Shown piece by piece: positions 17,779 to 38,942 of a stretch of DNA of 64,000 nt; within the stretch, counting starts at the first letter, position 1; each line of letters starts with the position of its first letter. A model generated the notes under the pieces. It saw nothing but the letters and a program-made list of their open reading frames with translations, did no database searches and had not been told where the DNA came from. The position numbers and the translations under genes are program-made. The stretch covers positions 29,802 through 93,801 of IMG/VR virus record IMGVR_UViG_3300045996_002640. One strand, written 5' to 3'. This stretch comes from a virus.

Positions 17779-17779
17779 C

Positions 17780-18964: not shown

Positions 18965-19651
18965 CTAACGATTCCGATCGTGCTGGTCAAGCGCGGCGAG
19001 CTCGCGATCCAAATCGGTGAGCTCCTCGGCGAGCGAGCGAGGTACCGCCGGCGGCAGCCAGCGCTCAGGCCAGAGCGTGATCGCGCCCATGAACTGTGCC
19101 GGCGAGACCATGGTGTAGACGCCGGTGTAAGGCGGGGGCCAGTGCGTATTCAGATCGAGCCCGAGAAACTCGTCGCGGCGAGTCGCCCAGACGTTGAGCG
19201 CGCTCGCGAAGAACCGGAGCTCCTCGCGCGCCATCGCGCAAACCTCGGGCGAGTAGTCGCGCGAGATATCGAACACCATCCCCTGAGCGACCTCGACGTA
19301 CTCCTCGGTTTGCGTCCGGAGGAGCCGCTGCCGATGCGCGTCCGGGAACCAAACGCCGAGGAGCGCCGAGCGGATGAGCAACTCCGCAGCGCGCGTCGCA
19401 ACCGGGTCGGCCGCATTCTCCAGCTCGGGCGCGGTGAACAGCGACTCCTCTTTCAGCATGTCGTGCGCGTAGCGAACCGCGAGCTCGATCGTGCGTTCGT
19501 TCGATTCATCTTTGCCGGCCACGTTGAAAGTATAGCCCCCGGCTTGGACGCCACCTTGAGGGTTCCCCATCCTGCCGTACATCGAGTTGGTCACGATCTT
19601 GAGGACCGAACCATTGTAGTGCACGCCGAGGCGCTGGCCGTCGTCGCTCAA
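18965..19651 (-). CDS. Unknown protein with degenerate C-terminal tag
   Basis: 228 aa, no recognised family. The N-terminus (VLKIVTNSMYGRMGNPQGG) is followed by long helices. The C-terminus LTDLDRELAALDQ is a weak version of the LGAELDRMELP tail found on its neighbours, followed by six more residues. The start overlaps the upstream gene by ATGA. It is the last member of the first tagged-gene cluster. Confidence 0.6.
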   Translation of the reverse strand: MSDDGQRLGVHYNGSVLKIVTNSMYGRMGNPQGGVQAGGYTFNVAGKDESNERTIELAVRYAHDMLKEESLFTAPELENAADPVATRAAELLIRSALLGVWFPDAHRQRLLRTQTEEYVEVAQGMVFDISRDYSPEVCAMAREELRFFASALNVWATRRDEFLGLDLNTHWPPPYTGVYTMVSPAQFMGAITLWPERWLPPAVPRSLAEELTDLDRELAALDQHDRNR

Positions 19652-20148
19652 TTGGGGAGCTCCATCTTCTCGAGCTCGGCGTCGAGCTCATCGATCGCCT
19701 TCGGGTCGCCCTTGCCACGTGGCAACACCGGCTGAGCCTTGAACCCGCGCGGGGGCTTGGTCTCGGTGAACGTGACGCTCTCGGAATAATAGCCGTTCGA
19801 GCTCCCGAACCAGCGAATCGAGACCGTGCCTTTGACGGTACCGAACCGGTAGTAGGTCCAGGTGAACGACTCGTATCCATCGGCGGGCGGGAAATCGACG
19901 CCGCTTGTGACCTCCTCGGCGAGCACGAGCGGGTGCCCAATGAGGTCGTCCAGGTCGCCGGCGATGTCCTCGACCGAGCACGTGGCGCAGCAATCGGCCT
20001 CGTAGTGAAAGCGGAACTTCCACCCGTCCTGGGTCTCGATCGTCATGTCCTCGCTGCCGACTGCTCCGCCGTCAATTGAGGTGACGACCTTGCCGATCAT
20101 GTTCTCGAAGGTGGTGGCGTCGATTTTGGTCATTCCGATTTGGGTCAT
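19648..20148 (-). CDS. DUF7448-like protein with C-terminal tag
   Basis: 166 aa. The core QDGWKFRFHYEADCCATC, then SVEDIAGDLDDLIGHPLV, then FTWTYYRFGTVKGTVSIRW and SNGYYSESVTF matches a small phage/plasmid family annotated as DUF7448 (function unknown; acidic cleft and paired cysteines). The protein ends DELDAELEKMELPN, the shared tail. The CTGGAGCTCCC site that starts this gene codes the LELP of the preceding protein. Confidence 0.65.
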   Translation of the reverse strand: MTQIGMTKIDATTFENMIGKVVTSIDGGAVGSEDMTIETQDGWKFRFHYEADCCATCSVEDIAGDLDDLIGHPLVLAEEVTSGVDFPPADGYESFTWTYYRFGTVKGTVSIRWFGSSNGYYSESVTFTETKPPRGFKAQPVLPRGKGDPKAIDELDAELEKMELPN

Positions 20149-20660
20149 GGGAGCTCCAGGCGCTCAAGCTCGCGGCCGAGTGCCTCGTAGTCTTCAGGCG
20201 TGTCGGGATTGAGAATGCCCGCCGGCGTCCGCCGCTGAGCGTCGAGCTCCAGGTACTCACCCCACCGGTCGACAACGCTATGCACCTCGTCGACCTGGAG
20301 ATCGTGGCGCCAGCCAGAGAGATCGATACGAGCAAAGTCCTCGTTCGCAATCGCCACGCCGTGGATTGCAAATTGTTGGGCCGCCCAGAGCGTGCGCCGC
20401 ACCTCGATACCCGCGCCCTGTTGCAAGAACTCGTCGAGCCGATTGAGGACGAAGATCGCTTTTGCAGCGAAGTCGCCAAGGAGTCCGCTCAGGGCCAGCC
20501 GCACGTGCTCGTCCTCGACATCGGCATGGGCGTGCACCAGCATCCCAGCGACGAAGCCTTCTGCACCGCGGTAAGACGGGGGGAGATCTGGCTCCGCTTC
20601 CATTCGCCGGCGCGCCTCGAAGAGCGCGTGCATCCGGTCGCCGATCGTGTCCAAGCTCAT
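20145..20660 (-). CDS. Unknown helical protein with C-terminal tag
   Basis: 171 aa, no recognised family; mostly helical with a Gly/Ala-rich centre. The last 21 residues (ILNPDTPEDY, then EALGRELERLELP) are nearly the same as those of the next upstream gene product although the rest of the two proteins differs. ATGA overlaps join it to both neighbours, so the three genes are probably translationally coupled. Confidence 0.6.
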   Translation of the reverse strand: MSLDTIGDRMHALFEARRRMEAEPDLPPSYRGAEGFVAGMLVHAHADVEDEHVRLALSGLLGDFAAKAIFVLNRLDEFLQQGAGIEVRRTLWAAQQFAIHGVAIANEDFARIDLSGWRHDLQVDEVHSVVDRWGEYLELDAQRRTPAGILNPDTPEDYEALGRELERLELP

Positions 20661-21199
20661 GAGGGGAGGGTCAGCCGATCGAGCTCGCGGCCCAGCGCCA
20701 CGTAGTCCTCGGCCGTATCTGGTTCCAGAATGCCTTCGAGGAACGCGACCCGATTCAGGAAAGCGTCAGGCGAGCACGACTGCCAAGCGGCGCCCCACGC
20801 GAAATGGCGAGCGACGTAGAGCTCGTCGTGGCGGCGGTCCCAAAAGAACGAGCACACGGTACCAGTCGCGAGATCGTGATTTGCCGCCTGGACGATCGTC
20901 TGGAAAATGAAGAACGGCATCGGGCGATCCAAGTTCATGGCGAGCTGATTCAGCGCCCACTCCTTATCGCCCGCGATCCGTCCAGGCAGCGCGAACGCGT
21001 CGTCTGGGTCCTTGATCACGTACCCGCTCATAAGCGCGTAGGTCTCAGCGACCAGGCGCTCCGCGCTCAGGTGGAAACGAGCCTTCGCGATCTTGAGGTA
21101 CAGGCCGACCTGCTCGGCCGCCCAAGAGACCTTGATGTCCGTCACGGGCCCGCCGGCGAGCGCGGTTCGGTCGGGGTAGTCGTCGCTTAGCAAGCTCAC
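20657..21199 (-). CDS. Unknown protein with C-terminal tag
   Basis: 180 aa, GTG start chosen from the GTGA overlap with the upstream stop. Aromatic, alpha-helical body (FHLSAERLVAETYALMSGY, then FFIFQTIVQAANHDLATG) with no recognised motif. It ends ILEPDTAEDY, then VALGRELDRLTLPS, a close relative of its downstream neighbour's tail. Confidence 0.58.
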   Translation of the reverse strand: MSLLSDDYPDRTALAGGPVTDIKVSWAAEQVGLYLKIAKARFHLSAERLVAETYALMSGYVIKDPDDAFALPGRIAGDKEWALNQLAMNLDRPMPFFIFQTIVQAANHDLATGTVCSFFWDRRHDELYVARHFAWGAAWQSCSPDAFLNRVAFLEGILEPDTAEDYVALGRELDRLTLPS

Positions 21200-21726
21200 G
21201 ACGGCATCATGCCGTCGAGTTGGGCGCCCAATTGTTCGAGGTAGGCGGTGCCCTCCTCGGCCGTCAGGACGACTCTGCTCTTGGCGACTTGCTGGCCCCA
21301 CCGATAGAGCTCCTCGAGGAACTCGGAAGCGTTCAAGAACGCCTGATAGGCGACGATCGTCGCCATCGGAAAGTCTGAATTGAACCCGGGGTCCCTGGCC
21401 CAAAAGTGAACCGCCGCGAGCGAGCGCGCCAACACGCGCGGTTCGATCCCGAGGTCATCGAAAACCGTCAGCGCGATCTTGTCATACGAGTGGCCCGGGT
21501 TCTCGTTCTCGAGGTGTCGGACCATCTTGAAGACCGACTCGCGCGGGCAACGGCTATTCGCCTGAACGATGACCGCCGCGGCGACCGCAACCGGCGTAAT
21601 CTCGGCGAGGAAGCGGTCGCCTTTCTTCTTCAGATCTCGCACCCGCTGCGTCACCTCGGCGAGCTCGACCAGCATTGCGGCGAGCTGCTGTTCCGCGGTC
21701 TGCATCGGGTACCGCAGAACTGTCAC
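21196..21726 (-). CDS. Unknown helical protein with C-terminal tag
   Basis: 176 aa, GTG start in a GTGA overlap. The N-terminal third is a coiled-coil-like helix (LVELAEVTQRVRDLKKKGDR), the rest is helical and unfamiliar. The C-terminus YLEQLGAQLDGMMPS is a tag variant, coded through the palindrome GTTGGGCGCCCAA. Confidence 0.57.
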   Translation of the reverse strand: MTVLRYPMQTAEQQLAAMLVELAEVTQRVRDLKKKGDRFLAEITPVAVAAAVIVQANSRCPRESVFKMVRHLENENPGHSYDKIALTVFDDLGIEPRVLARSLAAVHFWARDPGFNSDFPMATIVAYQAFLNASEFLEELYRWGQQVAKSRVVLTAEEGTAYLEQLGAQLDGMMPS

Positions 21727-22088
21727 CTCGGGAGCTCCATCTCGTCGAGCGCCGCCTGCAGTTTCGGGAACGGGTCCTCGAACTCGACCGGGTCCGCACG
21801 CCGCGCGAAGAGCTGCACCGGCGCGCGCGAGAACCCGACCATGTAGGCGCGGCAGTGATCTCGGCCTTGCAGGATGAACGTGTTCACGCGCTCCTTGAAG
21901 ACCAGATCCAACCACTGGGCCTGGCTCGCGACCAGGACCGCCGTCAGGTTGCGGTCCTGGGTCAGCTGCCACCCGGCGATCTGGAGTCCAAGCGTCGTGG
22001 CGAGCTCGATCAGGTACTGAGGATCGAACGGCTCGCCGCGCGCGTTGAAAGCCAGGAGCCCGGGGATCACGCTCGGCCCTCGCGCCAT
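21723..22088 (-). CDS. Small unknown protein with C-terminal tag
   Basis: 121 aa, a compact alpha/beta protein (YLIELATTLGLQIAGWQLT, then AVLVASQAQWLDLVFKE) of unknown family. The C-terminus KLQAALDEMELPR is a shortened tag that keeps the MELP end. Confidence 0.55.
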   Translation of the reverse strand: MARGPSVIPGLLAFNARGEPFDPQYLIELATTLGLQIAGWQLTQDRNLTAVLVASQAQWLDLVFKERVNTFILQGRDHCRAYMVGFSRAPVQLFARRADPVEFEDPFPKLQAALDEMELPR

Positions 22089-22405
22089 CGAGAGAGCCCG
22101 ACGCGCGTCGGCACGTAGCGGTAAGGCGGGGAGCCATCGCGCACGATCAGGCGCTGCCGCTCGAGCTCAAGCAGCGACGTGTGGATGTTCGCCTTCCAGG
22201 GCTCGGCGTCGAACACCTCGGTCAGCACGCGCGCGCCCGCCTCGTGGAGCTCCTTGGCCGTGACCCCGAAGCCTTCCTCCTGGGCGTGCGCGATGATCCC
22301 GCCGAGCGCGATCCACTCGTGCCAGCAGATCCCGTAGTCGTGCCGGATACGTTCGTCCCGCGCGCGCTTGCGAGCGCCGGCGGCCCTCAGATCAAGAGCC
22401 CCCAT
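22067..22405 (-). CDS. Small winged-helix-like protein
   Basis: 112 aa. The central helices and the segment ANIHTSLLELERQRLIVRDG, then YRYVPTRVGLSR, look like a winged-helix recognition helix plus wing, suggesting DNA binding. The start is uncertain because an upstream gene overlaps by 14 bases; the downstream neighbour overlaps by 22. No tag. Confidence 0.5.
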   Translation of the reverse strand: MGALDLRAAGARKRARDERIRHDYGICWHEWIALGGIIAHAQEEGFGVTAKELHEAGARVLTEVFDAEPWKANIHTSLLELERQRLIVRDGSPPYRYVPTRVGLSRWREGRA

Positions 22406-22637
22406 TGACCCGCTTCTCCCAGGCTAGGTAGTCCCGGCTCGCGCGCTTCCGCTCTTCGAGCTTGGTGAGCGCCAGGCCGAGCCGCTCGATCCGGTCGCGG
22501 AGGAAGCGGTATCGGGACGGGCGGTTCATCACCATGGTCGGGTTCTGACGGAGCTCCTCCTCGTGAGCCGCCTTCTCAAGGCGGGTAGATTGGATATCGG
22601 CTTCAAGCTCGCCGAGAGTCGTGTCGGTGCTGCTCAT
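22392..22637 (-). CDS. Small coiled-coil protein
   Basis: 81 aa, almost entirely one charged helix pair (LEADIQSTRLEKAAHEEEL, then FLRDRIERLGLALTKLEER). It resembles small phage accessory proteins; no function can be assigned. Overlaps both neighbours. Confidence 0.5.
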   Translation of the reverse strand: MSSTDTTLGELEADIQSTRLEKAAHEEELRQNPTMVMNRPSRYRFLRDRIERLGLALTKLEERKRASRDYLAWEKRVNGGS

Positions 22638-22974
22638 GTAGGGTCCTCGGGCTGGTCAAGATGACGGTTGGAATTGGGCGACCAGGTCGCCAAGTCGTGG
22701 CGACGAATCTTGCCCGGTCGAACCAGGCGGTGCACTCGGGCGTGACGATGCGAGTGGCGAACTCCATACCGGGCGCATCCGAGCACCGGTAGTTGCTTGT
22801 CGCTGGCAGGTCGGGCAACGCAGGAAAGTTGCCGATGTGCTCGAGCTCTAGAATCCTCCCGCTTTCAAGCTCGATGAACGCCGCAGGGAGCGCCCAGCCT
22901 CCGGCGAACGAGTAGGCCTTCCGCGGCATGAGCGCCAGCGCGAGTGCGCCGGTTAGGAGCGAGCGGCGGTTCAT
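22603..22974 (-). CDS. Small exported protein with twin-arginine-like signal
   Basis: 123 aa. The N-terminus MNRRSLLTGALALALMPRK has a twin-arginine motif and hydrophobic stretch followed by an AYS cleavage-like site, so Tat or Sec export is plausible. The mature part has two or three cysteines and is unfamiliar. The start is an ATGA overlap. Its last codons overlap the next gene by 35 bases. Confidence 0.5.
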   Translation of the reverse strand: MNRRSLLTGALALALMPRKAYSFAGGWALPAAFIELESGRILELEHIGNFPALPDLPATSNYRCSDAPGMEFATRIVTPECTAWFDRARFVATTWRPGRPIPTVILTSPRTLHEQHRHDSRRA

Positions 22975-23246
22975 GTGGCGGGCCTCGAGAACTTCGGACG
23001 TGGCTCCTCGCGGCGAGCGTCGATGATCTCGACAGGGACGAGCTCGCGGTCGATCCCGAGCTGCTCGAGCCAGGCCTCCGCGTGGCCGGCGCTGACGTCG
23101 CACTCGACCTCGGCCACCGCATTCGGGTAGCCCTCGGGGAACTGCGGGGGCCCCTCGATCCGGAAGCTCACCCGGTCCTTGCCGCCGTTCGGCATGCGCA
23201 CGATCTGGATCGAGAGCACGCAAAGAAAGTGCACCACGCGGCTCAT
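22971..23246 (-). CDS. Small unknown protein
   Basis: 91 aa. A hydrophobic N-terminus (VVHFLCVLSIQIVRM) could be a strand or a short membrane segment; the remainder is acidic (AVAEVECDVSAGHAEAWLEQ). No family recognised. Joined by ATGA overlaps to both neighbours. Confidence 0.5.
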   Translation of the reverse strand: MSRVVHFLCVLSIQIVRMPNGGKDRVSFRIEGPPQFPEGYPNAVAEVECDVSAGHAEAWLEQLGIDRELVPVEIIDARREEPRPKFSRPAT

Positions 23247-23419
23247 TTCGTCACCGCCGGGTCGAGCTCGCCCCGATCGATCATCTCCTCGATCTCGCGC
23301 TTGGTGTGCTCGGTCTCGACCAGCACCTTCCGAACCGCGGCGAGCGCCGACGAGTAGCTATTCCAGGTCCCTCGCTTCTGGAGCCGGCGAGCCAGACTCG
23401 TGTCGATATCCCGGCTCAC
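23243..23419 (-). CDS. Small helical protein
   Basis: 58 aa from a GTG start that overlaps the upstream stop as GTGA. Charged helix (ALAAVRKVLVETEHTKREIE). No family recognised; included because of the coupled start and its place in a gapless run of genes. Confidence 0.45.
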   Translation of the reverse strand: MSRDIDTSLARRLQKRGTWNSYSSALAAVRKVLVETEHTKREIEEMIDRGELDPAVTK

Positions 23420-23625
23420 GAGGTCCTCGCTTTCCGAGTCTTCGCCATCGAGTCGAGGATCGCCTTCACCTCGTCCTTGCGCTCCGCGCGGTACGCCTCG
23501 CTCGCGAAGAACAGGAAAAGCAGGCACAGGACGATCCCGCCAATCCCGCGCTCTGACCAGGCGCTCCAAAACGACGCGCCCGCAGCGAACAGCCAGAACG
23601 AGCTCCAGCGCACCAGCTGCGTCAC
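23416..23625 (-). CDS. Small membrane protein
   Basis: 69 aa with one or two hydrophobic segments (WSSFWLFAAGASFW, then GIGGIVLCLLFLFF) followed by a charged cytoplasmic tail. It could be a holin-like or accessory membrane protein, but there is no lysis cassette around it. Confidence 0.5.
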   Translation of the reverse strand: MTQLVRWSSFWLFAAGASFWSAWSERGIGGIVLCLLFLFFASEAYRAERKDEVKAILDSMAKTRKARTS

Positions 23626-23924
23626 TTGCCCCTCCGCGCCCGGCTAGCTTTCTTGCGCGCGCGCCGCGCCGCCTTGTTCTTGTTCTTGAGCTTCCGGTAC
23701 GCCTCTTTCACGATCTCGTCCTCTCGGTTCTTGGCCATGTGGTTCTTCAGCCAGGCGCGCCGCTCATCGGGCGTCATCTGGGAGACGGCCTCGGCTTCAT
23801 CAGGCGGGACCGGGACCAGGCCCTTGCTCTTCGCCTGAGCCTTCTGCTCCTCCGCCGTCCCTTCGAGAATGTGCAGGTTCGCTTTTCGAGTCGTGTCCAT
23901 CGACCGGAGAATGCCGCGCGACAT
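23622..23924 (-). CDS. Small basic protein
   Basis: 100 aa. The N-terminal half is acidic-neutral and the C-terminal half is very basic (KLKNKNKAARRARKKASRAR), typical of small nucleic-acid-binding proteins. A later ATG at 23900 is an alternative start. It overlaps the upstream membrane-protein gene by about 125 bases in another frame, which is unusual for this genome. Confidence 0.5.
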   Translation of the reverse strand: MSRGILRSMDTTRKANLHILEGTAEEQKAQAKSKGLVPVPPDEAEAVSQMTPDERRAWLKNHMAKNREDEIVKEAYRKLKNKNKAARRARKKASRARRGK

Positions 23925-24249
23925 CGATCGACTGCACCTGAAAACCCCACTGCTCGAAGCGCGTCTGCAGCGCGCGCTCCAAGAAACGGTTCTTCTTCTG
24001 GGCCTCGATCATGCGCGCGTTCATTCGCCCGAGCTCGACCCAGAGCCCGACCAAACCCATCGGCCACGCGAACACCGCGAAGACCATCATCAGGCTTTCG
24101 GCAAGCGCCTCGTTCCAGCCCCTCGGGTAACCCATCTCGCCCGGCCGATTCTCGATCGCAGCGCTCGCTGCGTACATGGCGGTAACGACGCCGGCGCCGA
24201 AGAGCAGGTAGCCCCCGGCGATTGCCGTCAGGATCTCGCGGTCTGTCAT
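23800..24249 (-). CDS. Membrane protein with two TM segments
   Basis: 149 aa. Two hydrophobic helices (LTAIAGGYLLFGAGVVTAMY; SLMMVFAVFAWPMGLVGLWV) precede a charged helix and a low-complexity Gly/Glu/Ser tail. The tail lies in the overlap with the next gene and may not be constrained. Function unknown. Confidence 0.5.
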   Translation of the reverse strand: MTDREILTAIAGGYLLFGAGVVTAMYAASAAIENRPGEMGYPRGWNEALAESLMMVFAVFAWPMGLVGLWVELGRMNARMIEAQKKNRFLERALQTRFEQWGFQVQSIDVARHSPVDGHDSKSEPAHSRRDGGGAEGSGEEQGPGPGPA

Positions 24250-24253
24250 GCGG

Positions 24254-24643
24254 CTATGATGCCGCGCCGAAGTACCGATCGATCAGGTCATCTTCAGGAA
24301 GCCGGCGCGCAGCGCGAGACCGAGCCTTGCGGTTCTGCTTCCAGCGCTTTCGCTTCCTGGCTTTCTTGGACCGCCTCGCGACCGCCGCGAGCGATCGCTG
24401 CTCCATCGGTCGGAACCACGAGAACACGAGCAGCGCGCCCTTGATGCGATTGCACTCGGCGCACGCTGGAACGAGGTTGTAGGCGTCGCCGCCTCCGCCC
24501 CCTCGGCTCCTCGGAATCACGTGGTCACGAGTCGTCGCTTCAGCCCTCAGGCAATACGAGCAGCGCGCGCCGTTCAGGCGCACGTCTCGGTTGGCAACGT
24601 CGACCGAGCGCCACCGAAACTCGCTCAGCCCGAGCGGTCTCAC
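24254..24643 (-). CDS. HNH endonuclease
   Basis: 129 aa from a GTG start overlapping the upstream stop (GTGA). It has the HNH core CSYC, then RDHVIPRSRGGGGGDAYNLV, then PACAECNRIKG, with the two CxxC zinc knuckles around it, followed by a very basic tail (KKARKRKRWKQNRKARSRAA). Free-standing HNH nucleases in phages act as homing enzymes or in packaging. There is no intron nearby. Confidence 0.75.
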   Translation of the reverse strand: MRPLGLSEFRWRSVDVANRDVRLNGARCSYCLRAEATTRDHVIPRSRGGGGGDAYNLVPACAECNRIKGALLVFSWFRPMEQRSLAAVARRSKKARKRKRWKQNRKARSRAARRLPEDDLIDRYFGAAS

Positions 24644-25125
24644 GGCAGGTCCATGCGGTCCAGTTGGGCGCCCAACTCGTCGAGCAAGCCGTCCGGGATC
24701 GGCTCGGGCGGCGCCTTCCGCGGGATCGACAACTCGGCGATGATGATCCGCTCCAGCACGACCGGCTCGCCGGTGATGACCGCGGCTGCCGTCTGGCGCG
24801 TGAACTTGATCGAGTCGCCGAGGTCGATCCCGAGCCCGGGGATTCCGCACCGGCTAAGCTCGTCAATGATCCGGCTCCGCATCTGAGGCGTCAGGTTCGG
24901 AAGCAAGACCTCGGGGTAGCACGGCTCGTTCGACCGCCAGGTGAGCGTCCAGCCCGGGTAGCCCGTGCGCTGCATCGCCTTGGTGACCGCCTGAGTGATC
25001 TCGTACTGGGTGTCCCCATCGGAGCGCTGCGGCCCGAGCCCGAGCGCGCGCCGAATGTCGTCGAGCGGGTTCCCTGGTTTCGTATTCCAGCCGATCACCT
25101 CTTCCGCGAACCTCGGCAACGTCAT
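24640..25125 (-). CDS. Unknown protein with C-terminal tag
   Basis: 161 aa. Unfamiliar alpha/beta body. It ends LLDELGAQLDRMDLP, one of the clearest tag copies; codons GAG TTG GGC GCC CAA CTG give the palindrome CAGTTGGGCGCCCAACTC. Here the tail lacks a GGAG ribosome-binding site, so the peptide is kept without that DNA constraint. Confidence 0.58.
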   Translation of the reverse strand: MTLPRFAEEVIGWNTKPGNPLDDIRRALGLGPQRSDGDTQYEITQAVTKAMQRTGYPGWTLTWRSNEPCYPEVLLPNLTPQMRSRIIDELSRCGIPGLGIDLGDSIKFTRQTAAAVITGEPVVLERIIIAELSIPRKAPPEPIPDGLLDELGAQLDRMDLP

Positions 25126-25697
25126 CGCTTCGCGAGCTCCTCGAGGAACAACCGAGCGACCGCGCCGAGCAGCGAAGGCTTGGCCTTGACCTGCTGAGCA
25201 GTGAGCCCGCTCACTTCGGCAAGCTTCGCAGCGAACACGTGGTCACCCTGCACCGCTTGCTGCAGCAGCGCGCGCGACGCGTTCTCGAGAACCTCGGCCG
25301 CTTGCTTCGGGAACGCGAGCGGGTGATCTTTCACCTGGACGAGCGCGTTCGCCATGTCCGCCCACGAGAGCACCAACTTCGGTTCGACCGGGGGCTCGTC
25401 TTTCTCGCTCGCAAGCGTCGCCATCAACGCCGCCTTGGTCTGCTCGGCGTTCGACGCCGCCTTGCTCGCCGCCTGGTCAAGAAGCGCCGCGAGCTGCGGT
25501 GCCGACTGGTCCGCCTTCATCTGACCGGCGAGGTCGGTCATCACCTGGGCCGCTTGGCGCTGAGCCTTGGCGATCCCGAGCGCCTCACCAGCGCGGTAGA
25601 GCGCGAGCTCGCGCGGGCTCATGACCAGGGTCTCGGCTCCCTCAGGGATCTGGAATTGGGCGGCGTTCGGCTTCGGGGTCGTCATGCCCCCCATCAT
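25122..25697 (-). CDS. Helical unknown protein
   Basis: 191 aa, Ala/Gln-rich helices (IAKAQRQAAQVMTDLAGQMK, then SKAASNAEQTKAALMATLAS). Start chosen at the ATGATG overlap; MTTPKP at 25685 is an alternative. No tag and no recognised family. Confidence 0.5.
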   Translation of the reverse strand: MMGGMTTPKPNAAQFQIPEGAETLVMSPRELALYRAGEALGIAKAQRQAAQVMTDLAGQMKADQSAPQLAALLDQAASKAASNAEQTKAALMATLASEKDEPPVEPKLVLSWADMANALVQVKDHPLAFPKQAAEVLENASRALLQQAVQGDHVFAAKLAEVSGLTAQQVKAKPSLLGAVARLFLEELAKR

Positions 25698-26188
25698 GCC
25701 AGACGGAAGACCCGCCCTTCGAGCATCCCGAGCCCCCGAGCGACCAGGCCCTTGGCGTACTCGAGCTCGAACCGCTCGATCGGGGTTGCCCCGCCGTGGG
25801 CCCTGGCTCGCCCTACAATCGCTTTCTGCTTTTGGGATAGCCAGCGCTCCGCCGGAGGCCTCGCCGGCGCGGGGCGCCTCGGCCTGGTCGGTCTGGGAGC
25901 GGGTTGCGCCGGTACCGCCCGAAGGCCGTGCGCGTTCCACCGATGGGCGCCCAACGCGCTCTTCGTCGCGAAGCTCGAGCCGCACGCGCAACGGTAATCG
26001 GTGGGGAGCGGGGCCGGCTGGTTCCCCTTCCAATCGCTAGCAGCGACCTCGGGCTCGAGATGAACCGTCGCCCCGCCAGGCGCACGCGTCAGCGTCAGCA
26101 CCTCAGTCCATCCGCGTCGGGCGTCGCCCTTGGTCTGCGCCTCAGCAAAGAGCTCCAGGATGTCGAGCCTGAGCGCAGGGTAGTTCAT
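25694..26188 (-). CDS. Zinc-finger protein (C2H2-like)
   Basis: 164 aa. The segment YRCACGSSFATKSALGAHRW followed by NAH is a C2H2-type finger (spacing C-x-C rather than C-x2-C). A Pro/Ala/Arg linker and a C-terminal helical part (RFELEYAKGLVARGLGMLEG) follow. Single-finger proteins of this kind are scattered in phages of high-GC hosts; DNA binding is likely but untested. Confidence 0.6.
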   Translation of the reverse strand: MNYPALRLDILELFAEAQTKGDARRGWTEVLTLTRAPGGATVHLEPEVAASDWKGNQPAPLPTDYRCACGSSFATKSALGAHRWNAHGLRAVPAQPAPRPTRPRRPAPARPPAERWLSQKQKAIVGRARAHGGATPIERFELEYAKGLVARGLGMLEGRVFRLA

Positions 26189-26208
26189 CGGCGAGCGGTC
26201 ACCATAAC

Positions 26209-26622
26209 TCAGGGCTGGTCGAGCTTGGCGAGCTCTTCGTCGAGCCGCTCGTAATCCTCGAGGGTGTCCGCTGGTGGGGCTGGGCGAACCGACGCAATCC
26301 CGAACGCCTCGGCAAGCACGCGCATGTGCAGCGGGAGACCAACGACCCCACCCGACACGCGCCAGATCATGTCGCGCACCGCTTCATCGACCGTTTCGAT
26401 CAGCAGGTCGTCCTCGTCCTGCCTGAGCGCATACACGTCCTCGGGCGTGAACGTCGCGAGGTGCTGGTCATCGACCAAGATTCTGACCTTGGTGATCGTG
26501 CCACTCGCGCGCGCCGCACCGTAGAACCCGCCACGCGACTCGTCCCAACGAAGCACCGCAAGCGTCGTCTTGTCGCTCTGGTCCCGAGCCAGCAGGGTGA
26601 CTCGCTCCTTACCCTGAGCCAT
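26209..26622 (-). CDS. Unknown protein with C-terminal tag
   Basis: 137 aa, start from the TGATG junction with the upstream gene. Beta-rich first half (VTLLARDQSDKTTLAVLRWD), helical second half. Ends TLEDYERLDEELAKLDQP, matching the EDY-xxL variant of the tag on the 20-21 kb genes. Confidence 0.57.
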   Translation of the reverse strand: MAQGKERVTLLARDQSDKTTLAVLRWDESRGGFYGAARASGTITKVRILVDDQHLATFTPEDVYALRQDEDDLLIETVDEAVRDMIWRVSGGVVGLPLHMRVLAEAFGIASVRPAPPADTLEDYERLDEELAKLDQP

Positions 26623-27200
26623 CAGGGAAGCTCCATCCGGTCGAGCTCGGCGCCAAGCTCGGCGCACCGGCGCTCGCCTTCGACACGCTGCACCTCGCGC
26701 ATGCTCGCTCGATCCGCTTCGCTCACCGGAGGCTCGTCCACCAACTTGCTCGCCTCTGAAAACTTCCGTAAGTACTTGGCGAATGGCGAGTCGCCGATCT
26801 CTCGCGGCGGTGTTGGCGTCCCTCGGTACTGAGTGGTGAAGCCCTGACCAGTGCTCGGCGGGTTGAAGCTCGGACGATGCATCGAGTGCATCGAGACGTA
26901 CCGTTCGTAGGCCTCGCAGATATCGGCATCCGACACGCCCGCTTCCTTGAGGCGCTGGACCGCTTCGTTCGCACTCAATCGCTCGAACGCCATCGAGATG
27001 TCCCGGCGGGAGACAATTGCATCGCGAGTCGCTGTCTCACGCACCCGGCGCTCGAGCTCGGCAAGCTTCGCCATTGCAGCCTGCGTGTCGTCCGAGGAGC
27101 CGAACGCCGCGAGCGCGCGCTTCATGTGCGAGCCCACGGCGTCCAGCTTGCTCGAGTCGATCCCGATACTGAACCGCGGCTTGCCGTCGTCTTTCGCCAT
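26622..27200 (-). CDS. Unknown helical protein with C-terminal tag
   Basis: 192 aa. Long helices with a Pro/Gly-rich linker (~120-145). Ends CAELGAELDRMELP, the consensus tag. The codons ATG GAG CTT CCC double as the GGAGCT ribosome-binding site of the next gene, whose ATG overlaps the stop. Confidence 0.6.
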   Translation of the reverse strand: MAKDDGKPRFSIGIDSSKLDAVGSHMKRALAAFGSSDDTQAAMAKLAELERRVRETATRDAIVSRRDISMAFERLSANEAVQRLKEAGVSDADICEAYERYVSMHSMHRPSFNPPSTGQGFTTQYRGTPTPPREIGDSPFAKYLRKFSEASKLVDEPPVSEADRASMREVQRVEGERRCAELGAELDRMELP

Positions 27201-27215
27201 CGCTTCGAGAATGCC

Positions 27216-27674
27216 CTACTCGGTTGGGTTCATCTTCTCGAGCTCGGCGCCGAGCCGGTCGATCTGGTCCGGGTCGGGAACCAGCTTCTTGGCGCGCGCC
27301 GCGAGGATTGCGTTCGACACCAGCATGTTCGCCATCCGGAGCCGCTTGCCGGCGAGCTGCTCGGGCTGAGGCTTGAGCGTGATCACCGCGATGAGCGGGC
27401 CGAGCCCGAAGCCGATGTGGACCATGGTCGGGTCGTTCTTGTCGATATCGACGACGATGTTCTCGCGCACCGACGGGAGCGTCTCGTGCACCGCAAGGAA
27501 CGTCGGCACCCCGGTCTCAATGATCGTACCCTCGATCGCCGCCATCCGCGGCACGTACTCGTCCGCGCCAAACTCGAAGTCGGCAAGCGCGATCGTATTG
27601 CCGAGCGCGCCAGCAGCCTTGTACTCCGCCGGCGTGGGGACCGGACCGCTCTTCACCAGAACCAGGTACTTCAT
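27216..27674 (-). CDS. Unknown protein with C-terminal tag
   Basis: 152 aa. Alternating strands and helices (KYLVLVKSGPVPTPAEYKAA, then PLIAVITLKPQPEQLAGK), no recognised family. Ends QIDRLGAELEKMNPTE, the tag with an altered end; the next gene is not overlapping here, so the MELP coding is not tied to a ribosome-binding site. Confidence 0.58.
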   Translation of the reverse strand: MKYLVLVKSGPVPTPAEYKAAGALGNTIALADFEFGADEYVPRMAAIEGTIIETGVPTFLAVHETLPSVRENIVVDIDKNDPTMVHIGFGLGPLIAVITLKPQPEQLAGKRLRMANMLVSNAILAARAKKLVPDPDQIDRLGAELEKMNPTE

Positions 27675-28021
27675 TTCGTCGTCTCCTCGAGGGCCGCGAA
27701 CGCGGCGTTCAATCCAGTCATCGCTTCCAGCACTGGGTCGTCCGACTCGCGATAGACCGAGATCTTGATCAGGTGGGACACCAAGACCGGCATCTTGCCG
27801 CGCACGTCCGAGACCAGCGCATGGCAAAGGACCGTGTCCGCGTCATCGGTCACGATGATCTGGAGCTCAGCGAATGCGTCCGGTGCCTGCAGCGCGCGCG
27901 CCGCGACGACCTTGAGCCCGAGCAGCTGAGCGCTCAGCCCAGCCTGCGTGCAGACCGCCTGGCACGCAGCTCGCGCGGCGATGACGTCGGTTGGCGAAAC
28001 GGACACGTCGTTCAATCCCAT
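27671..28021 (-). CDS. Small unknown protein
   Basis: 116 aa, Ala-rich mixed alpha/beta (VIAARAACQAVCTQAGLSAQ, then AELQIIVTDDADTVLCHALV). No tag. It overlaps its upstream neighbour by 10 bases and its downstream neighbour by ATGA. Confidence 0.5.
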   Translation of the reverse strand: MGLNDVSVSPTDVIAARAACQAVCTQAGLSAQLLGLKVVAARALQAPDAFAELQIIVTDDADTVLCHALVSDVRGKMPVLVSHLIKISVYRESDDPVLEAMTGLNAAFAALEETTK

Positions 28022-28734
28022 GGGCGGTCCATCTTCTCGAGTTGGGCGCCCAACTCGTCCAACAAATGAGGGTCGAGGCGCACTCGCTTACTCGGTACCG
28101 GCTTGCTCACCATGCCCTGCAGCGCGCGCGCGACCAGCGCGAACGGGACCTCAACGTTCCCCTCGCCATCGTCGGCCAGGCTGTCTTCGAGGGGCACCGT
28201 ACGCGTCGTGCTGCCGAAGCCGCCAGGCGCGCCGCTCTGAATCATCAGGTGCGTCGGGGCAATCGCCGAGATGATGCGCCCTCGCCAGACCGGAAAGTCC
28301 CGGTCGGGACCGGCGCAATAGAAGTTGAACGGCACCGTGATCGGGCGAGGCTTCTCCGTCATGACGCCAGGCGCGGCGAGCTCGACCGTAGTCTTTTCGA
28401 TCGCGACGCCATTGATGGCGCCGGCCGCACGCACGGCCCCGAGCTTTGCAAGCACCCAGTGCAGGTAGACCCGGTGCGTTCCGAAATTCTCGACGTGCGC
28501 ACCCGGGTCAAGAGGCGTCGAAAAGAGCACGTCCTTGGCGAGCACCGCGGGCTCGTTCTGTCTCGTCAGGCTGAGCTTACCGAACGTCGCCGAGACTGGT
28601 ATTCCCTGTCGCTCTCCGGCGCCGATGTAGTTGCCGGTGCTATCCAGCACCGTGAGCGAGATCGTGCGATTCGCGGAGTCGGTCAAGAAGACGCCGAGCC
28701 CGTCCAGCTCGACCAGGTTCTTAGTCCTGGTCAA
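28012..28734 (-). CDS. Unknown beta-rich protein with C-terminal tag
   Basis: 240 aa. Beta-type body (RTISLTVLDSTGNYIGAG, then PRPITVPFNFYCAGPDRD). Ends LLDELGAQLEKMDRPWD, the tag with three extra residues, coded through the GTTGGGCGCCCAAC palindrome. No family recognised. Confidence 0.58.
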   Translation of the reverse strand: MTRTKNLVELDGLGVFLTDSANRTISLTVLDSTGNYIGAGERQGIPVSATFGKLSLTRQNEPAVLAKDVLFSTPLDPGAHVENFGTHRVYLHWVLAKLGAVRAAGAINGVAIEKTTVELAAPGVMTEKPRPITVPFNFYCAGPDRDFPVWRGRIISAIAPTHLMIQSGAPGGFGSTTRTVPLEDSLADDGEGNVEVPFALVARALQGMVSKPVPSKRVRLDPHLLDELGAQLEKMDRPWD

Positions 28735-29798: not shown

Positions 29799-29816
29799 GT
29801 GGTCCAGGATGCCCAT

Positions 29817-30644: not shown

Positions 30645-30645
30645 C

Positions 30646-32268
30646 TTAGAACCCTCCGCCTTGTGACTTGGTCGGGCTGCCTGCATGGGCGCCCGAAGTT
30701 TGCTCTGCTGGGTTGGCGAGCCCTTGCCTCGCGAGCCAGAGCGACGCGAGATGGTCGCCCATGTGGGTGCGCGAGCTGTAGCCCATGCACTCGTCGCCCA
30801 GCTGCTTCATCACCTGAGCGGGCTCGCCCTCGCTCGGGCACGGCCACTCCCAGAGCCCCTGCATGAGCTCGAAGAACACGCGCTCCACGCCGTTCTGGTG
30901 ATCGCTCTTGGAGCCGTGGGTCGTGTAGAAATAGACGACCGGAATCCGCTTGTCGCTCGCCTTGAGGTGGTCGGCCACGAAGCGCTGCGCGGCGTTCGAC
31001 TCGACGAAGACCTTGGAGTCGTAGCGCAAGGCCTCCTCCTTGATTCGGCGCACGAGCTCGGGCCCGTTCCAGCGTCCGCTCTGGAGGTTCACGATCCGGC
31101 GCTGCTGGTTCTCCTGGACCTCGACCGTGCAGATTGAGCTGAGGTCGCTCTTATCGCCGCCGAGCCCGCCAACGTCCACGCCCGTGTAGTGGCGCAGGCC
31201 GTTCGGCTCGAGCTTGCGTCCGAGCTCGAGCCCGCGTCCCTGCTCGTAAGCCTCCAAGATCCAAGCGCGCTCGCAGCGCGAGGCCTCGTCCGCGAACGGG
31301 TCGCAGAGGTACATGCGGGCCCAGACCGCCGGGAGGAACTCGTTCTTCAGCGCCTCGATCGCCGCCTTGCTCCCGTACCTCGAGTGGCCGGGCCAGAGGA
31401 CGGACAGGACTTTCTTCGTAGGGGCCGCCGGCGAGCGCAGGCGCCAGAGCTCGGGGTGCTTCGGCACCTGAACGATCAGGTCCCCGTACGCCTCCTTGAT
31501 CTGGTCGACGCTCAGGCCCTCGACGACGATCTGGCCGTTCACGTCCATGGTGAGCGTCGGCCAGACTCGGGCGTAGCGATAGGTCAGGTCGTCCGGGTTC
31601 CAGGGCGTGTTGGTGATCGCGATCCGCTGCGGCCCTTGGTCAACGCGCGTGACGAAGTCGTTCTGGAACTTCCGCGCGAGCTCGTCGCGCTGCTCGAGCG
31701 TGGTGGTGTTCTCCTCGTTCAGAACATCGTCCGCGTAGAGGTGCGTGAGCCGGGCGCCCAAGACGCGCGTGCCGAGACCGAACGCCCTGAGGCTCGGGTC
31801 CTTGGCGACGCGCCTGCGCTCGACCTCGAGCACCGTGTCAGACCACTTCGCGTTCGGGTCGGGATGCTTCCGGAGCTTCGGGAAGACGAGCCGCAGTGAA
31901 AGGCCCTCCTCGACGTAGCTCTTGAAGATCTTCACCGGCATCGAGGCCTGCGCCTCGCTCGCGCTCACGATACCGACACGGGCTTGTGGGTCCCGACCGA
32001 GCTGGTGCGTGAGGTGCGACGAAAGCAGGAACGTCTTCGAGGCGCCCGTCGGCATCCTGATCACGCTCCGGCGATTGTCGTCCATGAACCTGAGGACCAG
32101 GTGCTGGTGCGGGACGAGCCGAACGGGATCGCCGCTCTCGGTGTTCATGGCGAACTCGGCCATGACCGCAGGGTCTTCTCGGGCCTCGCCCGCGTAGGTG
32201 GCGACGGCCGTTAGCAACTTCGCTTGCTCCTCAGGCGTCAACGCCAGGAGCGGGTTGGGAGCGCTCAC
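30646..32268 (-). CDS. Terminase large subunit
   Basis: 540 aa, GTG start within the first unit of the 50-bp array. ATPase domain: variant Walker A RMPTGASKT at 71-79, Walker B LTHLYADDVL at 174-183. Nuclease domain: GVDVGG at 363-368, VFVESNAA at ~420-427, and the final acidic residue in HMGDHLASLW (~502-511). These match TerL proteins that cut and pump DNA into the prohead. The gene lies ~13 kb from the portal rather than beside it, and 50-bp repeats sit just upstream. GTG is preceded by weak ribosome-binding sequence only. Confidence 0.85.
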   Translation of the reverse strand: MSAPNPLLALTPEEQAKLLTAVATYAGEAREDPAVMAEFAMNTESGDPVRLVPHQHLVLRFMDDNRRSVIRMPTGASKTFLLSSHLTHQLGRDPQARVGIVSASEAQASMPVKIFKSYVEEGLSLRLVFPKLRKHPDPNAKWSDTVLEVERRRVAKDPSLRAFGLGTRVLGARLTHLYADDVLNEENTTTLEQRDELARKFQNDFVTRVDQGPQRIAITNTPWNPDDLTYRYARVWPTLTMDVNGQIVVEGLSVDQIKEAYGDLIVQVPKHPELWRLRSPAAPTKKVLSVLWPGHSRYGSKAAIEALKNEFLPAVWARMYLCDPFADEASRCERAWILEAYEQGRGLELGRKLEPNGLRHYTGVDVGGLGGDKSDLSSICTVEVQENQQRRIVNLQSGRWNGPELVRRIKEEALRYDSKVFVESNAAQRFVADHLKASDKRIPVVYFYTTHGSKSDHQNGVERVFFELMQGLWEWPCPSEGEPAQVMKQLGDECMGYSSRTHMGDHLASLWLARQGLANPAEQTSGAHAGSPTKSQGGGF

Positions 32269-32830
32269 TCTCGGAATAGAAGCAGAGCGGGTGTCAGCGC
32301 ACAAGCCCGGCGAGTGAATTCCAGAATTGACCGGAACGCCGCGCGAGGCGACGCGAGCTCGAGCTCACTTCCGAAATGGGCGCCCGTCGCACCGATGCTG
32401 CGCGCGCTCCGAGCTCACTTCCGGAATGCTCCGCTTACTTCGCGGGAGTCTCGGAAGCATTCGATCACTTCCGAAAGTCGCTCCGAAGTATCGGCAGTGG
32501 CGAGCAGGTTCCGGCGACTTTCGGAATTGGCGAACGGCGCTCGTGACCTCACGCAAAAACGGAGGCACTTCCGGAATGCCCTCCAGTTTTTCGCAGCGGT
32601 ACCGTGCTCGCCATCGGCTTTCAGAATTCGGGCCCGAGGCGCGCGGGTCGGGCCCGAGCCCGGCTCACTTCCGAAAGCTCCGCTTACTTCGAGCCACTCC
32701 GAGCGCAGGTTCAGCGACTTTCGGAATCGGTCGGTTTGCTGCGCGGAGTGCCGAGCAGGTTCCGCGACTTTCGGAATTGGCGAGTACTCGTCGCCGCGCC
32801 TGGTGATGGCGAGGGCAATTCCGAAATGAG
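32267..32830. repeat. Array of 12 TTYCGRAA motifs at exact 50-bp spacing
   Basis: Motifs of the type ACTTCCGAAAT, ACTTCCGGAATG or ACTTTCGGAATT begin at 32267, 32317, 32367 and then every 50 bp to 32817. Spacing is invariant across the run, while the ~37 bp between motifs vary. The core TTYCGRAA is palindromic. The array fills the gap between terL and the gene at 32924 and includes the terL start codon. Frames through it are uncoupled because 50 is not a multiple of 3. Protein-binding array or structured RNA is inferred; the remaining bases to 32923 are motif-poor. Confidence 0.9.
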
Positions 32831-33187: not shown

Positions 33188-33190
33188 CTT

Positions 33191-34355: not shown

Positions 34356-35068
34356 TCGTCGTTCTCCTTGAGCCAGCGTTCAGCTGCCTCGATTGCAGGT
34401 AGGTACGAGACGCCCGAGCGGGCGCCGACGACCAGGTTCCGGATCACGTCGCGCGCGTCCCTGGCGGTCGCCTCGGCCTTGTGAAGTAGGTCGAGCGCCT
34501 CAGGGTGCAGCTTGGTCCTGAGGACCTCGTCGTACGCCGCGCGCGGGACGTACTCGGTCGGGGGGTTCGGCATTTCCTCGCCCTGGAACGGGAAGCACGT
34601 CGCTCCCATGAACTCGCCCGTGACCGGCTCGCGCTGCACCCACACGGCCTTCCAGCGCTTGCCCTCGAGGACGGCCGTCGCCTCGGGAATGGTCGGGCCG
34701 CCGAATCCCTTGGGCGCCCAAGGCAAGGGTGGCGGGGGAGGTAGCGGGGTCGGAACGAAGCCCCCCGAGCGCGGAGGGGGTGCGTTCGGCTCAGGTCGCT
34801 CCGTGTCGCCCTCGTCGCCCGCCTTGATGGCCCGGCCGATGTAGCGCCAGTCGCCCGCGTGGCAGGCGCACGGGCAAGGCGTGACCCGGCAATAGGGCGA
34901 GCCTCGGCGCCGGCACTCGTCGCAAGGGGTTGGACAGCTGGTGCACATCACGGTCCGGACGGCCTCGCCGTCCTTGCTGAGCGCCATCTCGTGCGTGTCC
35001 GAGCACGTGACGCAAACTGGGTCTTTCGGTAACTCGCTCACAATCCACCTCCGCCGAACATCAGCCAT
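34352..35068 (-). CDS. Cysteine-rich unknown protein
   Basis: 238 aa. The N-terminal 65 residues have ~10 cysteines (DPVCVTCSDTHE, then MCTSCPTPCDECRRRGSPYC, then TPCPCACH), suggesting bound zinc. A proline-rich linker and a C-terminal helical domain follow. A GTG at VSELPKDP is an alternative start. Confidence 0.55.
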   Translation of the reverse strand: MADVRRRWIVSELPKDPVCVTCSDTHEMALSKDGEAVRTVMCTSCPTPCDECRRRGSPYCRVTPCPCACHAGDWRYIGRAIKAGDEGDTERPEPNAPPPRSGGFVPTPLPPPPPLPWAPKGFGGPTIPEATAVLEGKRWKAVWVQREPVTGEFMGATCFPFQGEEMPNPPTEYVPRAAYDEVLRTKLHPEALDLLHKAEATARDARDVIRNLVVGARSGVSYLPAIEAAERWLKENDE

Positions 35069-36288: not shown

Positions 36289-36520
36289 TCGGGCGTTCCT
36301 TTCGCACCTCGTCGCCGCCCAGCATGAGCGAGCCGACGAGGTACCCGAATGATGCCAGCATGAACAGGAGAACCACCGCGATGATCAGCCGCTGGATCGC
36401 CGACTGGACCTGGACATCGTGAGCGAGCTCCGCCCGCTGCTCGGCGTTCAGGCGCTCGCGCAAGTCGGGATCGCGCTCGAGCAGTTTCTGCACCCAGTCG
36501 TGGTCGAAATCGGTCTTCAT
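36221..36520 (-). CDS. Small single-TM protein
   Basis: 99 aa. A charged N-terminal helix (LERDPDLRERLNAEQRAELA) precedes one TM segment (IIAVVLLFMLASFGYLVGSL) and a polar tail. Topology is like some spanin or holin accessories, but no lysis enzyme is near. The last 25 codons lie in the overlap with the next gene. Confidence 0.5.
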   Translation of the reverse strand: MKTDFDHDWVQKLLERDPDLRERLNAEQRAELAHDVQVQSAIQRLIIAVVLLFMLASFGYLVGSLMLGGDEVRKERPSDCQTSSATPRDRHRCADRSVR

Positions 36521-36990
36521 GGCAGAACCATCAGGTCGAGTTGGGCGCCCAACCGGTCGATGTCCTCGGGCTCGCCGCCGCTCGGGACCGACCGCCAGAT
36601 CCCGTGCAGCATTTCCTGCATCGCCAGGTATGGCGATGACCAGCCTTCGAGCACGAGCGTGTTCTTCAGGTCGATCAGCGTGTTGACGTTCTGATCGTAG
36701 AACGTGCCGGGGCTTTTACTCGAAATGAGATCGGCGCACGCCTCTTCGATCGACATACCGGTTCCCATGCTCGAGACCCGGTTGGGGCCCATATCCATCA
36801 CGACGACCCAAACCCCGAACGCATCGCGGTCGAGACCCGCCGGGTAGATCATCGCGTTCGTACATCGCGCCTGAACCAGCATCCACGCGTAGTTCAGCTC
36901 CGCGGTTCGACCCAGGCTCGGGAACGGCTTGTTCCGCAGGCCCTTCATGATCGTCGCCGCGAGAGGGCTCAGGTACGTCGCGTCAGCCAC
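36517..36990 (-). CDS. Unknown protein with C-terminal tag
   Basis: 157 aa, GTG start with GGAGCTC just upstream inside the previous gene's tail. Mixed body (NYAWMLVQARCTNAMIYPAG). It ends DIDRLGAQLDLMVLP, a tag in the second cluster, coded through GTTGGGCGCCCAAC. The MVLP end shows the peptide is kept without a GGAG. Confidence 0.56.
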   Translation of the reverse strand: MADATYLSPLAATIMKGLRNKPFPSLGRTAELNYAWMLVQARCTNAMIYPAGLDRDAFGVWVVVMDMGPNRVSSMGTGMSIEEACADLISSKSPGTFYDQNVNTLIDLKNTLVLEGWSSPYLAMQEMLHGIWRSVPSGGEPEDIDRLGAQLDLMVLP

Positions 36991-37579
36991 CGAGCTCCAT
37001 CCGGTCGAGCTCGGCGGTGAGCCGGTCGAAATCGGCAAGCTCGGCGGGGAGCGGCTCGGTCCAGAACCAGTCGAGGAACTGCTTCGGCCCGACCCCGTCC
37101 ATGCGGTCCAGCCAGGTCTCGATCGGCCATCGCGACTGCACGCCGTCGATCGGGAGCGCCACCATCTTGTCCCGGAAGTCGAAGTTCAGCCGGAGCTCCT
37201 GGAGCCCGAGCTGCGCCGCGTAGACCGCCGTCGCCGCCTTGGCGGCCTCCTGGTTCATCGCACCGTTCCAGGTGTTACCCGAGACCCCCGTGCCGGCGCT
37301 CAAGTAGGCGTTCGCGACGACGCCCCACCACGTGTCCGCTTGACCCTCGATCCTCACCCGAGTGCCCTTGCACTCGGTCGCCGCCGTCAAATGGAAAAGC
37401 CTTGCACCGTCAAACCTCATCGAGAGTCGATGATCGAACCGCGGGTTGATCATCGACATCAAGGTCCAGGCCGCGCGCTGCGCCAGCGGTGCGTCGCCGA
37501 GGCCCTTCTCACTCGGCCGCTCGCCACCCTCGATCATCTTCCGCGCGAGCGAAAACGACACCACGATCTTGGTGTTCAC
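36983..37579 (-). CDS. Unknown protein with C-terminal tag
   Basis: 198 aa, GTG start in a GTGA overlap. Mostly alpha/beta with a Trp-rich segment. Ends DFDRLTAELDRMELGG, the tag with GG at the end. Confidence 0.56.
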   Translation of the reverse strand: MNTKIVVSFSLARKMIEGGERPSEKGLGDAPLAQRAAWTLMSMINPRFDHRLSMRFDGARLFHLTAATECKGTRVRIEGQADTWWGVVANAYLSAGTGVSGNTWNGAMNQEAAKAATAVYAAQLGLQELRLNFDFRDKMVALPIDGVQSRWPIETWLDRMDGVGPKQFLDWFWTEPLPAELADFDRLTAELDRMELGG

Positions 37580-38190
37580 GGCAGCTCCATCTGGTCGAGC
37601 GCCTCGCCGAGCGCGTCGGTCGACGAGGTGCGCGACCCGCCAGGGAGGCAACCCCACACCGCGAAGCAGACACCGTCGGGCGAGAGCTCGCGCCTGAGCT
37701 TGTCCTTCAAGCGCCGCTCAGACGTCGGCAGCATGAGAGCGCCGCCGAAGCGGTCGTAGGCGACGAGCTCGTCGCGCTCGCGCTCGAACTGGACCGGGTC
37801 CTTCGGGTCGCCCTTCGAGAAGCAGCAAGCGACCGCGAACGCGAGCGAGCGCGTGTAGGGCAGCACCCTGCGGTCGGCGGCCAGCGCGCCGTTCATCCGC
37901 TCGGTCACCACCGTCAACGCCGAATCGAACCACTCATCGAGGCGCGCCGGTGCGAGGTCGTAGACCATCGCGTTGTCGCCCTTCTGAATCACTCGAAAGC
38001 CGGTGAGCGCGGTGCCCTGGAGGTCGGGTAGGTTGTCGTGCCAACCGACGCTCCATCGCTCGTCGAGCTCGGACACCTGAACCAAGGCCCAGATAGCGGC
38101 CGCCTCCGCCGAACCCTTCGTCGGCTTCGCCTTGGCAATGTCCGGGAGGATCGTCCGGAGCTCCTCAAACAGTCGGGGGATCGCGATCAT
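37576..38190 (-). CDS. Unknown protein with C-terminal tag
   Basis: 204 aa, helical and cysteine-containing (FAVACCFSKGDPKDPVQFER). Ends TDALGEALDQMELP, the tag with a one-residue change of register. No family recognised. Confidence 0.57.
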   Translation of the reverse strand: MIAIPRLFEELRTILPDIAKAKPTKGSAEAAAIWALVQVSELDERWSVGWHDNLPDLQGTALTGFRVIQKGDNAMVYDLAPARLDEWFDSALTVVTERMNGALAADRRVLPYTRSLAFAVACCFSKGDPKDPVQFERERDELVAYDRFGGALMLPTSERRLKDKLRRELSPDGVCFAVWGCLPGGSRTSSTDALGEALDQMELP

Positions 38191-38217
38191 GCTTCGACCG
38201 CATCATGCCCCGGTGCC

Positions 38218-38553
38218 TCAGCGCGGGAGCTCCATCCGGTCGAGCTCGTCGCCGAGACGGGCCAGGTCCTCGGCCGCTTGCTTGCGCGCTAGACGCCCGC
38301 GCGACCGCTTGTTCGGCTTGGCCTTACCCAACTCGATCTTGACGTTATCGACCTGGAGCTTGGTCAGCTTCCCGTCACTATCGTAATAGACGAGCTCGCC
38401 CTTCAAGATCAGCTCGTCCGTCTCGAACAGACCGTACGAAAGATCGGCGGCGCCGAGGGCACCAACCCCCCGATCCGCCATGGTCAACTCGACTACGACC
38501 TTCCCATCGGCCGCGTCCTTGATGGCCGTCCCGACCGGCTCACGCTTGCTCAT
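38218..38553 (-). CDS. Small unknown protein with C-terminal tag
   Basis: 111 aa. Beta-rich body (ELILKGELVYYDSDGKLTKL), basic linker (KPNKRSRGRLARKQ) and tag ARLGDELDRMELPR. ATGA overlap with its upstream neighbour. Confidence 0.58.
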   Translation of the reverse strand: MSKREPVGTAIKDAADGKVVVELTMADRGVGALGAADLSYGLFETDELILKGELVYYDSDGKLTKLQVDNVKIELGKAKPNKRSRGRLARKQAAEDLARLGDELDRMELPR

Positions 38554-38942
38554 TTTGGAAGCTCCATCTGGTCCAGTTGGGCGCCCAATTCTTCCACCTG
38601 AGCCTCTGCCTCAGCCCGGTCAAACGCCCGCGGTCGGCCCCTTGGGCGCCGGGGCTCGGGCGGTGTCATGTCGACGCCGTAAGTCGCGTTCTCCTCAGCC
38701 TTGAACCAGCGCTGACCATCGGCCGATTTCATCAGGACGGCCCGGTGCCCCGACCGGAACTCGGCCTCGTACTCGAGCACGGCCGGGCCAAAGCTGACCA
38801 TGCCGCCACGTCCGTACACCGTCGATGACTTGTCCGAAACGCTCAGCGAGGTGCACTCCCACTCGTCGCCAAGCTCGTCGGGCCATCGAGCGCCGTAGCG
38901 CTCGAAATGGTCCCGGCCTGCCTCATACACCAGGTTTGGCAT
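38550..38942 (-). CDS. Small unknown protein with C-terminal tag
   Basis: 130 aa. Start MPNLVYEAG chosen from the overlap with the upstream stop. Contains a beta-type core and a basic Pro/Arg linker (RRPRGRPRAFDR). Ends VEELGAQLDQMELPK, one of the best tag copies, with the GTTGGGCGCCCAA palindrome. Confidence 0.58.
   Translation of the reverse strand: MPNLVYEAGRDHFERYGARWPDELGDEWECTSLSVSDKSSTVYGRGGMVSFGPAVLEYEAEFRSGHRAVLMKSADGQRWFKAEENATYGVDMTPPEPRRPRGRPRAFDRAEAEAQVEELGAQLDQMELPK

Follow-up and report, generated by a model that had tools for sequence, protein, structure and literature searches.

A C-terminal tail common to unrelated small proteins of an uncultivated phage, and its possible role as a docking helix

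The cargo peptides of encapsulins and microcompartments are short and terminal, sit on a flexible linker and dock their cargo to a shell, those of microcompartments being amphipathic helices. Unrelated proteins with a common C-terminal peptide that binds one hub are known from gp33, gp55 and gp43 of phage T4 and from the bacterial beta-clamp motifs. The capsid-targeting sequence (CTS) of the T4 internal proteins, by comparison, is N-terminal; these proteins are packaged in the virion, and the prohead protease cleaves the CTS. The internal proteins of T-even phages are highly diverse defence proteins that have only the CTS in common, and the T4 CTS can be used to load foreign proteins (PMC3012670). 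Here we describe a C-terminal peptide, hereafter the tail, that ends many small proteins without mutual similarity in an uncultivated phage contig (IMGVR_UViG_3300045996_002640). The stretch analysed, called the window, comprises 64,000 nucleotides and corresponds to positions 29,802-93,801 of this 93,801-base virus record; coordinates are those of the window unless the record is named.

As in the T4 internal proteins, one short peptide is found on diverse small phage accessory proteins, here as 17 tails on unrelated bodies. Since the CTS is N-terminal whereas all the tails are C-terminal, the tail is not a member of the CTS family, and we claim no sequence relation; judged by analogy, the CTS is the closest working analogue of the tail, but unrelated to it. 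Encapsulin and microcompartment cargo is alike in its terminal helix on a linker, as predicted by AlphaFold2 for gene 19648-20148 and, more weakly, for gene 24640-25125. The phage tail differs in being carried by 17 different bodies, and neither an encapsulin nor a microcompartment shell was recognised in the part of the gene set scanned with PHROGs and Pfam. We considered the possibility that the tail is a sliding-clamp motif (QLxLF-like) and rejected it, because only 6 of 17 tails contain Gln and a terminal aromatic residue is lacking. A canonical-looking QTDLF sits separately from the tails on this phage's B-family DNA polymerase (49745-52282), which ends in GQTDLFAPLSARS. QTDLF resembles the bacterial beta-clamp-binding motif, so the phage polymerase may use the host clamp.

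Detection and extent of the tail

The ends of open reading frames (ORFs) were scanned for the motif, and a profile built from the tails was then scored on gene ends and on internal windows. Seventeen small ORFs, encoding proteins of 111-240 aa, end in a strong tail, [LIYVF]xxLGA[EQ]L[DE]xMELP, 15 of them in the window and 2 to its left. Their C-termini scored 14.5-26.9 on the profile, whereas the best of 26,133 windows internal to genes of this phage reached 13.2; the next-best gene end reached 9.9, and no untagged end scored higher. When each tail was left out of the profile in turn, scores were 10.9-26.2, exceeding 13.2 in 16 of 17 cases (the exception being 26209). The tail was C-terminal and in frame in all 17, with no internal match of comparable score. 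An eighteenth ORF, at 18965, has a weak, plausibly diverged tail (score 9.4, per-gene p about 0.005). The sixteen tails claimed in the preliminary description were thus all present at their named stop positions on the minus strand, 15 of them strong and one (18965) weak, and the profile search of the genome that it had suggested added two strong tails left of the window, where a likely relict also lies. These findings indicate that the pattern is real, unusual and beyond chance, and that it includes one sound modular case, described below.

The tails are confined to accessory clusters at 18965-28734, at 36517-38987 and at the left end of the record, with untagged genes interspersed. The tagged accessory regions flank the large terminase and lie upstream of the portal gene. 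In the profile scan of gene ends, none of the recognised replication or structural genes had the tail.

No C-terminal copy of the tail was found in IMG/VR contigs or GTDB genomes; as these collections may omit the nearest records, this absence does not imply uniqueness. The strict pattern gave no match in viral contigs and one in genome contigs, and a looser pattern gave six viral matches, none of them a C-terminal tail. A separate set of common ends, (K/Q)WW..M.WLK (for example KWWTTMHWLK), was noticed at 43278-44787 of the closest long relative; it belongs to three ordinary tandem paralogues with similar bodies.

Unrelated bodies and a predicted terminal helix

With the tails trimmed off, no significant similarity between bodies was detected by BLASTP or phmmer, which bears out the earlier statement that the bodies are unrelated. 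The one apparent match proved to come from the DNA of an adjacent tail, translated in a different frame. The neighbouring genes 20145 and 20657 also have linker sequence in common (GIL.PDT.EDY). The sole body of a known family is that of 19648-20148, which belongs to DUF7448 (PF24240, phrog_2650; 79.6 bits in Pfam against a curated cut-off of 27) and has relatives of 38-53% identity in many phages. All 41 relatives examined stop 7-30 residues past the NGYYS core, before the tail, whereas 19648-20148 extends 43 residues past it with a linker and tail that none of them has. In this protein the tail is therefore an added module. The other 17 bodies had no match in phage records, against which all were searched, or in plasmids, against which part of them were. 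The N-terminus of 18965-19651 contains KIVTNSMYGRMGN, which recalls a B-family polymerase motif, with E no better than 0.4 against PF00136.

AlphaFold2, run on 19648-20148 with 34 sequences, predicted a confident body up to about residue 130, an unstructured segment (131-148) and a helix (149-161) that coincides with the tail and has a predicted local distance difference test score of about 73-75. The predicted fold of this DUF7448 body is nearly all-beta, and a fold search with the model gave no significant match. A low-confidence, single-sequence model of 24640-25125 likewise has an unstructured stretch followed by a helix (147-156), on a body that is predicted to be mixed, with helices. The hydrophobic residues of the tail are spaced i, i+3, i+7, i+10 (heptad a/d-like), the pattern of an amphipathic helix; hydrophobic moments average 0.48 in tails, compared with 0.28 in background windows. 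The proposal that the tail is an amphipathic helix therefore stands as a prediction, of a C-terminal module on a linker. A search of solved structures with the tail profile returned matches at chance level only, the best being a leucine zipper (E 0.08).

Docking helix or copied DNA

We hypothesize, with a probability of roughly 60%, that the tail acts as a portable docking helix at the C-terminus, by which accessory proteins are gathered on one partner. Copying of tail DNA between gene ends, for which the codon evidence is given below, would have provided unrelated small proteins with one C-terminal helix; this helix would attach to a single partner at one groove or one helical surface, and diverse small proteins would thereby be brought to the same place. 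Less surely, the partner would belong to the head assembly (scaffold, portal or the inner face of the capsid), and the tagged proteins would be packed in the head and injected, as the T4 internal proteins are. By analogy with the latter, head loading is the most likely use of the tail. A plug-in scheme in which any small protein that acquires the tail is loaded on a single assembly partner, probably one in the head, and then delivered is possible but on the whole doubtful. If the tail is a docking tag, one short peptide picks out phage genes, otherwise anonymous, that belong together in function. It would then be a second case, this time C-terminal, of the arrangement seen in T4, in which diverse proteins bear one address label, and might serve as a small helix able to load foreign proteins. 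Should delivery also take place, the tagged genes would provide about 17 ready candidates for injected proteins of host takeover or anti-defence. The test for common ends on unrelated bodies could be used to look for cargo sets and their hubs in any phage genome.

Several observations weigh against a docking helix. Neither a scaffold nor a capsid protein bears the tail, it was found in no relative, the portal-relative loci included, and untailed relatives were available for comparison for one body only. Part of the conservation of the tail is also clearly at the nucleotide level or due to copying. The preliminary description had named a ratio of nonsynonymous to synonymous rates near 1 as evidence against its reading, and the tails do not pass cleanly in this respect. 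The ratio of nonsynonymous to synonymous differences (pN/pS) was 0.68 (0.28/0.42) over the nine tail core codons and about 1.0 within the non-palindrome tails, the latter figure being weakened by strong codon bias.

The ratio of about 1 also speaks for a rival reading, in which a short segment at the 3' end of genes, with a palindrome (TTGGGCGCCCAA / GGCGCC) at its centre, spreads by recombination between gene ends or is a protein-binding DNA site, the peptide being merely tolerated. Six tails carry TTGGGCGCCCAACTS unchanged, in which TTG (7% of Leu) and CAA (18% of Gln) are rare codons; six carry the identical 12-bp palindrome TTGGGCGCCCAA, again with these codons and followed by a codon that varies (CTG/CTC), and eleven do not. 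Ala is encoded by GCC in the tails, though the phage prefers GCG, and the Gly of column 1 has a pS of 0.06 and a pN of 0.33. Agreement between tails in the codons used for the same residue was 0.67, against 0.505 ± 0.038 expected from phage codon usage, and 0 of 300 simulations reached the observed value. Because rare codons are common to the tails beyond chance and six palindromes are identical, we conclude that the tails were copied as DNA, and that part of their conservation is therefore not peptide selection. The 10-base palindrome core TGGGCGCCCA occurs 17 times in 93.8 kb, for example at 13964, at 34710 and in tails, and is found in several reading frames. In coding sequence outside tails there are 8 copies, against 0.7 expected from synonymous shuffling, and for TTGGGCGCCCAA outside tails the figures are 3 and 0.05; none of the related contigs checked contains TGGGCGCCCA. 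On this sequence evidence TGGGCGCCCA is possibly a protein-binding or highly iterated palindrome, but mild enrichment is seen for many palindromes of this genome. Moreover, the eleven palindrome-free tails retain Leu, Leu and Met/Leu with unaltered spacing, and every one of them is in frame and C-terminal; the two core leucines are Leu in all 17 strong tails, with four and three codon types, where undirected change would retain 10.8 of 17. Because these leucines are invariant while their codons change, the peptide is selected at least at the core leucines. The earlier inference from synonymous changes to a selected peptide thus holds there, but the codons do not vary freely. A segment spreading as DNA or bound as a DNA site, with no role for the peptide, is the main rival but in our view unlikely as the whole explanation; DNA copying, and perhaps a DNA-level signal, is part of the history of the tail.

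Descent of all tagged proteins from one ancestor, with bodies diverged beyond recognition and the tail alone left, would fit their similar sizes and the linker and tail that 20145 and 20657 have in common (GIL.PDT.EDY..LGREL). Yet the DUF7448 body, with its 41 untailed relatives, indicates that the tail was added there, its nearly all-beta predicted fold differs from the mixed one of 24640 (the latter at low confidence), and no body resembles another, all of which makes this explanation quite improbable. We also considered the possibility that the tail merely serves the overlapping gene that follows, as a GGAG ribosome-binding site or an RNA structure. GGAG lies a few bases before the next start in 10 of 17 tails, and many tagged genes overlap the next one as ATGA or GTGA. 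But the ribosome-site reading, which the preliminary description had raised against its own proposal, fails because the other 7 of 17 tails are without GGAG. Moreover, the conserved LGAELD part sits upstream of GGAG, overlapping genes without a tag manage without a tail, and in 10 of 12 tail regions RNA folding was better than that of shuffled sequences by at most about 1.8 standard deviations, no hairpin being common to the tails. The ribosome-site or RNA-structure explanation is thus largely refuted and the least probable of those considered.

Individual tails and their genomic setting

All tails in the window are on the minus strand. In the first cluster they are AIDELDAELEKMELPN (19648..19701, gene 19648-20148 with the DUF7448 body), EDYEALGRELERLELP (20145..20198, gene 20145-20660), EDYVALGRELDRLTLPS (20657..20710, gene 20657-21199), YLEQLGAQLDGMMPS (21196..21249, gene 21196-21726), FPKLQAALDEMELPR (21723..21776, gene 21723-22088), LLDELGAQLDRMDLP (24640..24693, gene 24640-25125), EDYERLDEELAKLDQP (26209..26262, gene 26209-26622), CAELGAELDRMELP (26622..26675, gene 26622-27200), QIDRLGAELEKMNPTE (27216..27269, gene 27216-27674) and LLDELGAQLEKMDRPWD (28012..28068, gene 28012-28734), preceded by the weak diverged tail LTDLDRELAALDQHDRNR (18965..19018, gene 18965-19651). 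The second cluster has DIDRLGAQLDLMVLP (36517..36570, gene 36517-37038), DFDRLTAELDRMELGG (36983..37036, gene 36983-37657, the real start being probably within the ORF), STDALGEALDQMELP (37576..37629, gene 37576-38190), DLARLGDELDRMELPR (38218..38271, gene 38218-38553) and QVEELGAQLDQMELPK (38550..38603, gene 38550-38987). The tails of 21196, 24640, 28012, 36517 and 38550 are of the palindrome type. Listed ORF starts were over-long in several cases; for example, 20657 really starts at 21199 and 21196 at 21726. Left of the window, LGEALEKMELP is found at record position 254 and LGAQLDRMELP at 1413, and the likely relict LVGAQLDGLELG lies 32 codons before the stop of record 2271-2834.

The 93.8-kb contig is that of a contractile-tailed phage, with nearly all genes on the minus strand. 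Read from right to left, genes for helicase, primase, ATPase, the B-family DNA polymerase, UvsX-like recombinase, SbcD/SbcC and methyltransferase come first, followed by the accessory region that holds the large terminase (30646-32304), and then by tRNA-Ile, the portal fused to a MuF-like domain, the head maturation protease (12218-14008), sheath, baseplate and endolysin. No DNA-level match to the region was found among the records of the phage collection. Relatives of the portal were found at 17 loci, the nearest about 50-56% identical, and searches with the DNA polymerase, the terminase and a candidate capsid protein had a small yield.

In 15106-17808 the portal is joined to a MuF-like head morphogenesis domain; the head protease is apparently fused to a scaffold-like C-terminal half; relatives of these two fusions are found in the same contigs. 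The latter fusion contains an internal look-alike of the tail, PLGVELDELV, which is kept in tail-less relatives, so it is uninformative on the tail and was set aside as not linked to it. A lone tRNA-Ile gene with anticodon AAT (18701-18778) separates the tagged cluster from the portal gene. Left of the window, on the minus strand of record 4857-12910, there are at least 6 near-identical intergenic elements and one partial copy, with promoter-like hexamers (TTGCAA-17-TAAGGT) around an inverted repeat (GTGCCAG-C-CTGGCAC). Several of them come after a terminator-like hairpin and before small genes, and none had an Rfam match above the gathering score; from their sequence they look like repeated regulated promoter cassettes. 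Finally, a 56-nt repeat (TCCGAAC...TTTAGGAAGTGCCCCGC...AAACTC) is present in four direct, irregularly spaced copies at 40968-41367, beside the methyltransferase gene.

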